From Halosimplex halophilum (GTDB lineage Archaea > Halobacteriota > Halobacteria > Halobacteriales > Haloarculaceae), in assembly GCF_004698125.1 (NCBI RefSeq), contig NZ_ML214298.1, positions 620,001 to 684,000 on the forward strand: a stretch of DNA of 64,000 nucleotides. The letters are read 5' to 3'. The position numbers were made by a program, and so were the translations under genes. The notes below the pieces were generated by a model. It had not been told where the DNA came from. It did not search any database and saw only the letters and a program-made list of their open reading frames with translations. Shown one piece after another: positions 1,560-58,563 of the stretch (position 1 is its first letter; every line of letters begins with the position of its first letter).

Positions 1560-1866
1560 GCGCGCTGTCGCGCGCTTTCATGCGCGCGACGAAGCCGCGC
1601 GAGGGATGAGAGAGTGAGTGCAACGAACGAGCGAATCGGCTGGGGAGGCTCGTGGCCCTCTGCGGTGCTGTGCGGGGCGGTTGCGGTGTGGTGCTGTGCG
1701 GTCCCTGGTGGACTGAAAGGGCGAGGCGCGCTCGCGTTCACTTTAGTCGTCTGAGCGGGCCACTATCTGAGCGACCGCGAGCGGGCCGAGGGCTTTCATC
1801 ACTCACCGTTTCCTGCGGTCGAGCCTTCAGATAGCGGGCGGGCCGAGGGCTTTCATCGCTCACCGT
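1560..1866 (+). repeat. Dispersed intergenic repeat, copy 1
   Basis: Fills most of the 385-bp gap between rnz and the phosphatidyltransferase gene. It shares ordered blocks with a second copy at about 26837-27118. These are a hairpin (9-bp stem GTCGCGCGC at 1567-1575, loop TTTCAT, complement to 1590), an exact 26-bp block at 1632-1657 containing GGCTGGGGAGGCTCG, a 10-bp block at 1659-1668, an 18-bp block at 1691-1708, and GCCGAGGGCTTTCA at 1785-1798, repeated at 1842-1855. Frames crossing it give low-complexity Arg/Gly/Ser-rich peptides and differ between copies, so it is judged non-coding. Strand is nominal. Confidence 0.8.
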
Positions 1867-10170: not shown

Positions 10171-10331
10171 TACCTCTCAGTGGTCGGCCCGCCGTGAAAA
10201 GCACACCACTTCCGCGCTCGCTCACCCGGGGTCGTCACCACACCGCACAGCCGTCGCCTCGCCGGCACGGCTCGCCCGGGCGGCGGCGGAACCCGGCAGA
10301 CACTTGCCGGTGGTAGCCCAAGCCGGCGGCG

Positions 10332-25910: not shown

Positions 25911-26765
25911 ATGACGGAGCCGTCGACGATCGAGTTGCCGGACGGCCGGACGCTCTCCTACGCCGAGTACGGCGACCCTGAGGGGACGCCCGTCTTCGCC
26001 TTCCACGGCGTCATCGGGTCACGGCTGATGTGGTCGCTGTGCGACGAGGCCGCTCGCGAGCGGGGGGTCCGCCTGGTCGCGCCGGACCGCCCGGGGTTCG
26101 GCGCCTCGGCGTTCCAGCGCAACCGGCGCCTGCTCGACTGGCCGACCGACGTGTGCGCGCTGGCCGACTCGCTGGGCGTCGACCGCTTCGGCGTCGTCGG
26201 CTTCTCCGGCGGCGGGCCCCACGCGATGGCCTGCGCCCACGCCGCCCCCGACCGGGTCCGCGGCGTCGCGCTCGTGAGCACGGTCACGCCCCCCGAGACG
26301 CGGGACCGCGCGGACCCGTTCAACGAGGCGGTGCTGTCGGCGACGCGGTTCGTGCCGGGGTTCTCCCAGGCGGCGTTCGCCTCCTCGGCGTGGCTGGCCG
26401 AGAACGCCTGGCCGCAGTTCCGCACCGCGCTGAAGGCCGGTTCGCCCCCCGAGGACCGGGCGGTCTTCGACGGCCCGGCGGGCGAGACGCTGTTCGCCGA
26501 CGGCGCCGAGGCGTTCCGCAACGGCGCCCGCGGCCCGGCCCACGACCTGCCGCTCGTCGGCAACGACTGGGGGTTCGACGTCCGGGACTGCCGGGTCCCG
26601 GTCGACCTCTGGCACGGCCGCGCGGACGCGACCGTCGGTCCGGACCTGGCGCGGGCGTTCGGCGACCTGCTCCCCGAGGCCGACCTCTACCTCGGCGACG
26701 GCGCCCACTACTCGACGTACGTCGACAACCGCGGCGCCCTCCTCGACGCGGCCGCCGCGCGCTGA
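25911..26765 (+). CDS. Alpha/beta hydrolase
   Basis: A 284-residue alpha/beta hydrolase. Oxyanion FHGVIGSR, nucleophile elbow VGFSGGG (S99), acid in HGRADATVG and His in GDGAHYSTYV complete the triad in order. APDRPGFGAS and SLGVDRFGVV are typical of the esterase/epoxide-hydrolase group. Substrate unknown. The start is the ATG at 25911, which shares a 124-bp divergent region with the MBL gene. A copy of the dispersed repeat lies downstream. Confidence 0.92.
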   Translation: MTEPSTIELPDGRTLSYAEYGDPEGTPVFAFHGVIGSRLMWSLCDEAARERGVRLVAPDRPGFGASAFQRNRRLLDWPTDVCALADSLGVDRFGVVGFSGGGPHAMACAHAAPDRVRGVALVSTVTPPETRDRADPFNEAVLSATRFVPGFSQAAFASSAWLAENAWPQFRTALKAGSPPEDRAVFDGPAGETLFADGAEAFRNGARGPAHDLPLVGNDWGFDVRDCRVPVDLWHGRADATVGPDLARAFGDLLPEADLYLGDGAHYSTYVDNRGALLDAAAAR

Positions 26766-26836
26766 CCGACGGACTGCCTCGCGGAGTGGCGTTCAGTGCG
26801 AGCGGTGGCTGCCGCGGCCGCGGTGAGCGGTACGGT

Positions 26837-27118
26837 CGGCGTGCGCTGTCGCGCGCGTTCATGCGCGCGATGGAACCGCGCGAGGTCTTCGTGAACTGTG
26901 TGAACGAAGGCTCGTCGGAGCTTGCTCCGACGGTGGATTCGCGACTCGCGTGTCGCGAATCGGCTGGGGAGGCTCGTGGCCGTCTGCGGTGCGGTCGCGG
27001 TGCCGTGCTGTGCGGTCCCTGGCGTCCGCGCGAACGTGTGAGCGCGCCGAGGGCTTTCAGCACTTGCTGTCGGCTGCGGTCGAGATGACTGCTAGCGAGC
27101 GCGCCGAGGCGTTCACCG
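26837..27118 (+). repeat. Dispersed intergenic repeat, copy 2
   Basis: Lies inside the 462-bp gene-free stretch 26766-27227. It matches copy 1 (1560-1866) in order: hairpin with stem TCGCGCGC (26849-26856), loop GTTCAT and complement to 26870; an exact 26-bp block at 26956-26981 containing GGCTGGGGAGGCTCG; a 10-bp block at 26983-26992; an 18-bp block at 27005-27022; and GCCGAGGGCTTTCA at 27046-27059. Between hairpin and core it has extra inverted repeats (GTCGGAGC/GCTCCGAC near 26909 and TTCGCGACTCGCGTGTCGCGAA at 26939-26960). The remaining bases to 27227 show no gene. Confidence 0.8.
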
Positions 27119-27227
27119 TCGACTACGCTCGCCGCTCGCGGACGGACCAGCGGCTCGGCGGCAGAAACGGCGGATTCGGAGGGGCCAAAACGGGCTACCC
27201 GTGGTGCTCACGGGGCCACGAGGGCGG

Positions 27228-27590
<363 letters not shown>

Positions 27591-57021: not shown

Positions 57022-57181
57022 ACCCCTCTCTCGGCCCGCGTGCGCCTTCAGCGTTGTCGCCGACGGGGAGTGCAGGTCGCCGACCGATAGTACGGGGTCA
57101 CCGACCGATAGCGCAGCCGGCGGAGCCGCGGTCCGAGTCGCCGGGCGATCCTTCATGTAGTCGCTGCCCCAACATGCGGTC

Positions 57182-57757
57182 GTGTCCCGCAGTCCGACGC
57201 TGACACTGGTCGCCGTCTTCGTCGTCGTCTTCCTCGTCCAGCGCGCCGTGGCGCTGCTGCAGATTCCCTTCGCGTTCGCGCTCGCGCCCCCCGTCGGCGC
57301 CCGGCCGTGGACGCTCGTCACGAGCGTCTACGCCCACCTCTCGGTCGGCCACTTGCTGGCCAACGTCGCCGTCCTCCTGCTGGTCGGTCTGTACCTCGAA
57401 CGCCGGACCTCCCGGCTGCGCTTCCACGCCTTCTTCCTCGCCACCGGCGCGCTCTCCGGGCTCGTCCAGGTGTGGGTCAGCGACCTGCTCGGCCCCGGCG
57501 TCGCCGTGCTGGGCGCCAGCGGCGGCATCGCCGGGCTGGTCGGGTACGTGCTGGCGGGCAACCGCATGAGCGACACGCTACTGGACAAGACGCCGCTCAG
57601 CCCGCGGGCCCAGCTCGGTGCGTTCGTCGTCGTCGCCGGCGCCGTCACCGTCGCCACCGCCGGCCCCGGCGTCGCCCTGGTCGCTCACTTCGCCGGGCTG
57701 CTGATCGGGCTCGTCGCGGGTCGACTGCACCTGTTGCGGCCGTCCGGGCCGGCCTGA
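57182..57757 (+). CDS. Rhomboid family intramembrane protease
   Basis: A 191-residue rhomboid with six membrane helices and a GTG start. Catalytic pair: S113 in GASGGIAG and H169 in ALVAHFAGLLIG. HLSVGHLLANVAVLLLVG supplies the conserved His/Asn region. Substrate unknown. It is followed 51 bp later on the same strand by a secreted protein gene. Confidence 0.92.
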   Translation: MSRSPTLTLVAVFVVVFLVQRAVALLQIPFAFALAPPVGARPWTLVTSVYAHLSVGHLLANVAVLLLVGLYLERRTSRLRFHAFFLATGALSGLVQVWVSDLLGPGVAVLGASGGIAGLVGYVLAGNRMSDTLLDKTPLSPRAQLGAFVVVAGAVTVATAGPGVALVAHFAGLLIGLVAGRLHLLRPSGPA

Positions 57758-57807
57758 GTTCAGCCGCTCGTCCGAACCTATTTCCAGCCGGCGCGACAGG
57801 TCGAACC

Positions 57808-58533
57808 GTGACGCCGACTCGGCGGAGTCTCCTGCGGACCGTCGGTGCCGGCTCGCTCGCCGGTCTCGCCGGTTGCGGGGCCATCGGCGGGCGGACCGCC
57901 ACGCCCGACTGCGACGCGGCCTGCTTCGAGGGGGATCTCGAACGCGCCGAGGACGGCCCCGACAGCCTCACCATCACCCACGTCGCCGGCCGGGACCTGT
58001 CCGCGGGGGCGGTCGCCGTCTCCGGGGTCGCGTTCGACTGGCCGCCCGCCCGCGAGTCCGGCTTCACCTACTCGTGGGCCGAGCTGAGCGATCTGGACCC
58101 CGAAGCGGGGACCGCCGGCCGGTCGCTGACCGTCCAGCCGGCGCTGGTCGACGCGGTCCGACTCTCGTGGACCCGTGACGGCGAACCGGTCGAACTCGGG
58201 GCGTTCCGCGTGTCGGACTGCGAGCGCGGCGTGGCCTGTTTCGAGGCCATCCACCGGGGCGCCGACGACGCGCTGGACCGGCTGACCGTCCGCCACGTCG
58301 ACGGTCAGGATCTGCCGGCCGAGGAGGTGTTCCTGACCGGCGTCGCCGACGACTACCCGCCCGACCCCGAGAGCGGGCGGACCGTTCCGTGGCACGAACT
58401 GAGCGGTCTGGCGCCCGACGACGGCGTCGCCGGCGAGAGCGTCCGGGCGAAGCTCGGCCTCGTCGAGCGCGTGTCGGTGCTGTGGCGCCGCGGCGGCGAG
58501 GAGTCCGTCGTCGAGTCCTTCGAGCTGTACTAG
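57808..58533 (+). CDS. Tat lipoprotein with duplicated domain
   Basis: A 241-residue protein with a GTG start: TPTRRSLLRTVGAGSLAGLAGC (Tat motif plus lipobox). The mature part has two related units of about 90 residues (42-130 and 150-241): each has DxLT(I/V)xHVxGxDLxA, WPPA/YPPD, a WxEL/WHEL near an AGxS and a final beta strand. This resembles haloarchaeal pilin-like Ig domains. Function unknown. A CTATTT element about 27 nt upstream fits the GTG. Confidence 0.75.
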   Translation: MTPTRRSLLRTVGAGSLAGLAGCGAIGGRTATPDCDAACFEGDLERAEDGPDSLTITHVAGRDLSAGAVAVSGVAFDWPPARESGFTYSWAELSDLDPEAGTAGRSLTVQPALVDAVRLSWTRDGEPVELGAFRVSDCERGVACFEAIHRGADDALDRLTVRHVDGQDLPAEEVFLTGVADDYPPDPESGRTVPWHELSGLAPDDGVAGESVRAKLGLVERVSVLWRRGGEESVVESFELY

Positions 58534-58563
58534 TCGCCGTGACGCCGTCGGCGTCCGGACTGG

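Follow-up and report, generated by a model that had tools for sequence, protein, structure and literature searches.

The window analysed here, 64,000 nucleotides of Halosimplex halophilum (G000:C2:620001-684000, from a 4.47-Mb genome in seven contigs, G000), carries two similar stretches of DNA between unrelated genes, which raises the question of what kind of element they represent. A sequence-only reading had described them as two copies of a "mobile or RNA-type element". Its placement of the copies was correct, with limits slightly too narrow: by local similarity they cover approximately positions 1549-1870 (copy 1, plus strand, similar to at least three other copies) and 26800-27121 (copy 2, plus strand). 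The shared blocks that it listed can be read in the same order in both copies, namely GCGCTGTCGCGCGC.TTCATGCGCGCGA (a hairpin with a TTCAT loop), CCGCGCGAGG, GCGAATCGGCTGGGGAGGCTCGTGGCC, TCTGCGGTG...GTGCTGTGCGGTCCCTGG and CGAGGGCTTTCA; the exact block GCGAATCGGCTGGGGAGGCTCGTGGCC is present and measures 27 bp, not 26. Copy 1 lies between a metallo-beta-lactamase/ribonuclease-Z-like gene (601-1545) and a CDP-alcohol phosphatidyltransferase gene (1931-2644), and copy 2 between an alpha/beta hydrolase gene on its own strand (25911-26765) and a SUI1 gene on the opposite strand (27228-27521). These four genes, identified with Pfam, are intact and unrelated to each other, so the copies are not decayed paralogous genes.

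Copy 1 carries a 5' hairpin (GTCGCGCGC-TTTCAT-GCGCGCGAC, 1567-1590), whose stem is exchanged for other self-complementary sequences in other copies. Then come a second hairpin cassette of the GATGAGAG... allele (1606-1635, delimited by comparing alleles across copies), the conserved core GGCTGGGGAGGCTCGTGGCC.. (1638-1659, from the genome pattern search), a 3' structured domain (1714-1798, recognized by our covariance model R1 with cmsearch at 72.3 bits, E = 1.5e-13), and one full and one partial 57-nt 3' unit (1777-1870, from a repeat search, the 57-nt spacing recurring elsewhere). Each 57-nt unit starts with a strand that pairs to TGAAAGGGCGAGG..., and the internal repetition at 57 bp reported earlier proved exact, a 33-nt unit occurring at 1777 and 1834 with 94% identity. 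In this copy an internal deletion has shortened helix B/C of the 3' domain, and the terminal hairpin of the domain, between ...GGGCCACTATC and TGAGCGACC..., is missing. Copy 2 comprises a 5' hairpin with a TTCAT loop (26848-26871, from sequence and predicted fold), an optional double-hairpin insert (CTTCGTGAAC..GAAG / CGTCGGAGCTTGCTCCGACG, 26887-26932, predicted fold), a second hairpin cassette of the GATTCGCGACTCG/CGTGTCGCGAATC allele (26936-26961, an inverted repeat with a predicted fold), the core (26962-26983, pattern search), and a 57-nt unit at 27040-27096 followed by a partial second one (27040-27118 in all, plus strand). Most of its 3' domain is deleted, with an R1 score of only 17 bits, and it keeps a shorter trace of the 57-bp period. 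Each of the two copies in the window has thus lost internal parts, which the earlier reading had not recognized.

The number of copies first proposed, two, turned out to be far too low. A search of the whole genome with the core pattern (GGCTGGGGAGG.TCGTGGCC) gave 73 matches at up to two mismatches against seven for a reversed-pattern control; we speak of about 70 core copies, since a few of the two-mismatch matches look like chance, and the figure is tied to the core pattern, core-less copies being missed. Copy 1 by itself matched some 40 further genomic sites with E-values from 1e-69 to 1e-35, which agrees with the claim that the resemblance is not due to chance, and DNA searches of the genome and of other haloarchaea, which recovered dozens of places in the former and homologues in the latter, show that the pair is not an isolated one. 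We collected 73 distinct core-bearing copies, with extents by local similarity of 218 to 665 bp (median 407). All 73 were intergenic and none was crossed by a called ORF. Their flanking genes were oriented (+,+) in 28 cases, (-,+) in 18, (+,-) in 16 and (-,-) in 11, single orientations being possibly wrong as genes were called with a simple composition score. We ruled out a strict 3'-UTR or terminator role because 29 of the 73 copies follow a gene on the opposite strand.

Full-length copies start with CCATCTTTTTC[GACCGGGGG]TTTCC...GAAAAACATGGGTGAAAAA and end near CCAGAAACAACTACTCGACTC. Hairpins are found near the 5' end and throughout, and no terminal inverted repeats were seen at the approximate ends of the Halosimplex copies. 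The order of the modules is fixed: a GC hairpin (with a TTCAT loop or others), an optional double hairpin (24/73 copies), a second hairpin that exists as several recurring alleles, the core, a variable G/T-rich spacer, another optional double hairpin (14/73), the 3' domain with two further optional inserts (14/73 and 13/73), and the 57-nt units, mostly one to four per copy. The optional modules are combined in many ways among copies. No transposase was found in or beside the copies, as judged from spanning ORFs and, among 100 flanking proteins, from the 25 Pfam families met most often.

The element was present in all eight Halosimplex genomes examined, and DNA similarity, strongest within the genus, was detected in 44 of 59 related genomes. 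The R1 model of the 3' domain recovered homologues in 77 of 292 haloarchaeal genomes, belonging to 34 of 77 genera. Copies per haloarchaeal genome ranged from none detected to about 70; this class-wide R1 survey used stricter filters and scored no more than 12 places per genome, so that its copy numbers are at least the values obtained. In some genera, with G029 and G312 as examples, a pair of oppositely oriented 3' domains separated by a few hundred bases forms an element with inverted arms. Several loci (L178, L180, L190, L133 and L135) appear as bipolar elements arranged around a centre, with the ends GAAAGCCC...GGGCTTTC. In several species of genus g6, a conserved homologue of the 3' domain (L198-L201) is located beside, and divergent from, a protein gene, with a TATA-like stretch between the two. 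The product, conserved and 335 aa long, weakly matches a replication protein A-like OB-fold (REPA_OB_2, E = 0.003, short of the Pfam cut-off). The homologue of the 3' domain could possibly be a parental RNA gene, or it may belong to the replication region of a plasmid. Partial copies were also found in haloarchaeal plasmid records, 11 in number. Ten of these are annotated, and in them the matched stretch carries no feature; the eleventh has no annotation. Neither an exact core-pattern scan of viral contigs nor the comparison with phage records produced a match.

Conservation of the fold could be examined by covariation. We aligned the 3' domain of 43 copies from several genera over 130 columns and tested four helices: TGAAAG/CTTTCA, a 12-bp helix after GGGCGA, GTCGC.TGAGCGGG/CCCGCTCAGCGAC and TATCCGCGC/GCGCGGATA. 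In this four-helix model 92% of the cells pair, and 20 of 40 pairs have changed on both sides, against 6.8 +/- 1.5 in shuffled alignments, none of 500 shuffles reaching 20. The signal disappeared when the partner strand was slid; the structure was drawn by eye from the same sequences and is favoured over the slid versions for this reason; the number of pairs changed on both sides weighs more as evidence. Most of the same helices were recovered independently by RNAalifold. The score is lowered by some distant rows whose alignment is off in the outer portion of the third helix. These results support a conserved-folding constraint acting on the 3' domain across genera, as read from aligned sequences. 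The Halosimplex rows contain 30 G.U cells and 4 A.C cells, which favours folding of the element strand, although cells are not independent events and many of the G.U cells come from a single wobble pair, which has 14 U.G over the full alignment; in the full, partly misaligned set the asymmetry is weak (47 against 22) and we thus use it as support only. The folding energy of single copies, which was weak or good depending on the copy (z of -1.5, -1.2 or -4.8 against shuffles), was set aside as uninformative at such GC content. Rfam (4227 families, release 15) gave no match at gathering score in the window, and relaxed E-values at six element loci gave chance-level matches only.

The fold constraint makes a serious rival of the idea that the element is a class-wide haloarchaeal structured non-coding RNA, whose copies would be transcribed and whose fold would be kept for RNA action (protein binding, mRNA end maturation), multiplicity being secondary. 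Covariation across genera, the G.U excess in Halosimplex, the g6 copy with its TATA-like stretch upstream and its conservation in several species next to the OB-fold gene, and the prevalence of the same strand among tandem neighbours (28 against 11) would all fit such an RNA. However, a copy number that varies from none detected to about 70 per genome, the many copies that are truncated or relics, both window copies included, and an occupancy that differs by site argue against it, and we regard it as the foremost of the improbable readings.

Species were seen to differ in occupancy at the corA site, where G003 has 30 bp between conserved flanks and G000 about 405 bp including an element; the element of G004 at this site has three 57-nt units and other cassettes. 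No target duplication could be established from this single comparison of an empty with an occupied site, which is strongly diverged. At other sites relics remain in relatives, with a 5' piece in G005 behind the ribonuclease-Z-like gene (which precedes copy 1 in the window) and 3' pieces in G002 and G006. When the flanks of 72 G000 copies were compared with those of 70 core matches in G003, both flanks were kept in 13 cases (11 direct, and two out of five that had been scored as matching two different copies, an effect of neighbouring copies), one flank in 19 and neither in 37, while three copies were true chimeras with flank polarity kept. The 13 copies with both flanks and the 19 with one suggest that most movement is old. 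At 12 shared sites, from one to 69 of the 71 paralogues outscored the orthologous copy, even though the upstream flanks are 89-95% identical; part of this effect is due to the presence or absence of inserts, which differ between orthologous copies at several of these sites. Same-site copies being no closer than paralogues, the copies appear to recombine, and this is the pattern that gene conversion among them predicts. Haloferax volcanii is known to be polyploid and to carry out gene conversion efficiently (PMC8223754, PMC11276520).

Four element loci, chosen sites rather than a genome-wide sample and including both window copies, were followed in relatives. For each of the four, one relative or more shows an exchange of neighbours with a different element locus. 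The ribonuclease-Z-like gene of copy 1 is followed by the gene downstream of L101 (D101) in G002, G003, G006 and G007, and the hydrolase gene of copy 2 by the gene downstream of L105 (D105) in G004, G005 and G007. The upstream flank of L105 borders the SUI1 gene in G003, only a short relic separating the two (U105-relic-D31). Both reciprocal junctions of L040 and L076 were found in G002, G006 and G007, and the upstream flank of L057 adjoins that of L076 in G003. Given about 70 element loci among about 4,400 gene junctions (a number assumed from genome size), we informally estimate the chance of such a coincidence at about 1.6% per comparison, about 10% for a locus followed through six or seven relatives and of the order of 1e-4 for four of four, reciprocal pairs being less likely still. 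The queries were element flanks only, so that non-element partners are invisible in this search, and several combinations of locus and genome gave no clear outcome. We also observed a segment inverted in G003 relative to G000 and G002, the ends of which adjoin copies in opposite orientation (1,497.0-1,497.3 kb, plus; 1,553.8-1,554.1 kb, minus).

The junctions U31-D105 and U76-D40 of the relatives contain no element today. For simple crossing-over to account for them, either the element was lost there afterwards or the G000 line had already gained it when the exchange took place, and we infer the order of loss or gain relative to exchange at these two junctions. Such element-free junctions would fit elements that favoured insertion at fragile junctions and did not themselves cause rearrangements. 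We find this unlikely, since the swap partners are repeatedly element loci and the chimeras keep the upstream/downstream polarity that crossing-over inside the element predicts. Elements are nevertheless not the sole cause of rearrangement, as breakpoints without any element exist in the window relative to G003, at about 10.2, 16.4 and 57-58.5 kb.

The explanation that we favour, and hold to be probable, is that of a high-copy, non-autonomous, non-coding mobile repeat with a conserved multi-helix fold, which would have spread and then recombined. Copy number, haloarchaeal homologues and covariation uphold the initial proposal of a mobile or RNA-type element, of which either mobility or RNA action may be the primary function. 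Recombination is the better-supported half, resting on concerted evolution and polarity-preserving swaps; mobility, by putative transposition, is what we infer from multiplicity, dispersion and site polymorphism. Most plausibly, copies would spread through a putative trans-acting enzyme working on the folded single strand, by analogy with IS200/IS605-type transposases on palindrome-ended elements. Similar copies would then serve as substrates for homologous recombination, probably in polyploid cells: gene conversion among them would reshuffle the hairpin cassettes, crossing-over would swap flanks (U1-E-D1 and U2-E-D2 giving U1-E-D2 and U2-E-D1, where U, E and D are upstream flank, element and downstream flank), and crossing-over between inverted copies would invert the intervening segment. 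Old copies would decay to short relics while the rearranged junctions remain. The fold may be selected for propagation or for intergenic tolerance, any host benefit being putative.

Gene order is very changeable among Halosimplex species, and an unannotated non-coding repeat of many haloarchaeal genera, with loci that exchange their neighbours, would be a concrete and testable cause of this. Interchangeable cassettes under a strict pairing constraint are also a natural record of repeat recombination in archaea. The fold itself may point to an RNA, or to a single-strand transposition substrate, not described before. More speculatively, and rather doubtfully, the family might be a new large structured RNA conserved over the class Halobacteria. 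Certain genera would have it as a gene of low copy number, one of them next to an OB-fold nucleic-acid-binding protein; elsewhere it would have multiplied in the manner of a SINE into dozens of copies, which shuffle their cassettes and drive rearrangements.

The open-access literature describes PATEs, MITEs and SMRs, and we found no description of this element in it. Considered as a mobile repeat, its closest described kind is the PATEs (palindrome-associated transposable elements) of Haloquadratum walsbyi, a class defined by its link to IS605 ends (PMC3119063), and the likeness rests on features other than IS605-type ends. PATEs are likewise haloarchaeal, non-coding and present in tens to nearly 200 copies per genome, with heterogeneous sequences, internal deletions that arise by recombination between repeats, and other small elements inserted into palindromes (PMC3119063). 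They also lack obvious terminal inverted repeats and target duplications and have hairpins close to their ends, traits that the element may share. They are too short for a transposase, as are the copies studied here (at most 665 bp, no spanning ORF in 73). Unlike PATEs, the element has a multi-helix covarying fold, modules that keep one order while their cassettes are exchanged, 57-nt 3' units, a class-wide spread and neighbour swaps between its loci. It resembles MITEs in being short, non-autonomous, intergenic and of high copy number but may differ from them, no terminal inverted repeats having been seen in Halosimplex and no target duplication established; the inverted arms of some other genera resemble large inverted ends. 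In size and complexity the fold recalls group II introns and the large structured RNAs of Rfam, with no family match there, and it shows the compensatory base changes expected in general of structured RNA.

REP/BIME sequences of bacteria, too, lie between genes in many copies and combine palindromic units into mosaics, but their units are palindromes of 20-40 bp (PMC2817692, PMC3733652), whereas the element is several hundred base pairs long (median conserved extent 407 bp) with long-range helices. An element that the host maintains for chromosome architecture or recombination, in a role like that of bacterial BIMEs, would fit the exclusively intergenic location and the link to neighbour exchanges; its orientation relative to genes is inconsistent, however, and most sampled haloarchaea have no detection at the cut-off used, so we give this reading little credence. 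Decayed paralogous genes or chance similarity of GC-rich DNA, suggested by the very high GC content and by folding energies barely below shuffles for some copies, can be dismissed in view of the absence of spanning ORFs, the 73 matches against seven in the control, and covariation.

Some further observations concern gene arrangement in the same genomes. At window positions 10224-10290, gene order breaks relative to G002, G003 and G006 over only about 66 bp without an element; in G003, an element copy (462.6-463.0 kb) stands right at the gene end that matches this interval. The block at 57056-58544, 0.6-1.4 kb long, has its neighbours elsewhere in three of three relatives and thus corresponds to two close synteny breakpoints. 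At L098 (G000:C2:889700-894300), a pirin gene is located between two convergent element copies, and the gene between L023 and L046 has a similar arrangement and looks inverted relative to G003. Finally, the upstream part of the L028 locus (G000:C3, about 629.9 kb) resembles a cobalamin riboswitch (CCGGTGCAAGTCCG...GCCGAATGCCGGGCC), as recognized by eye.
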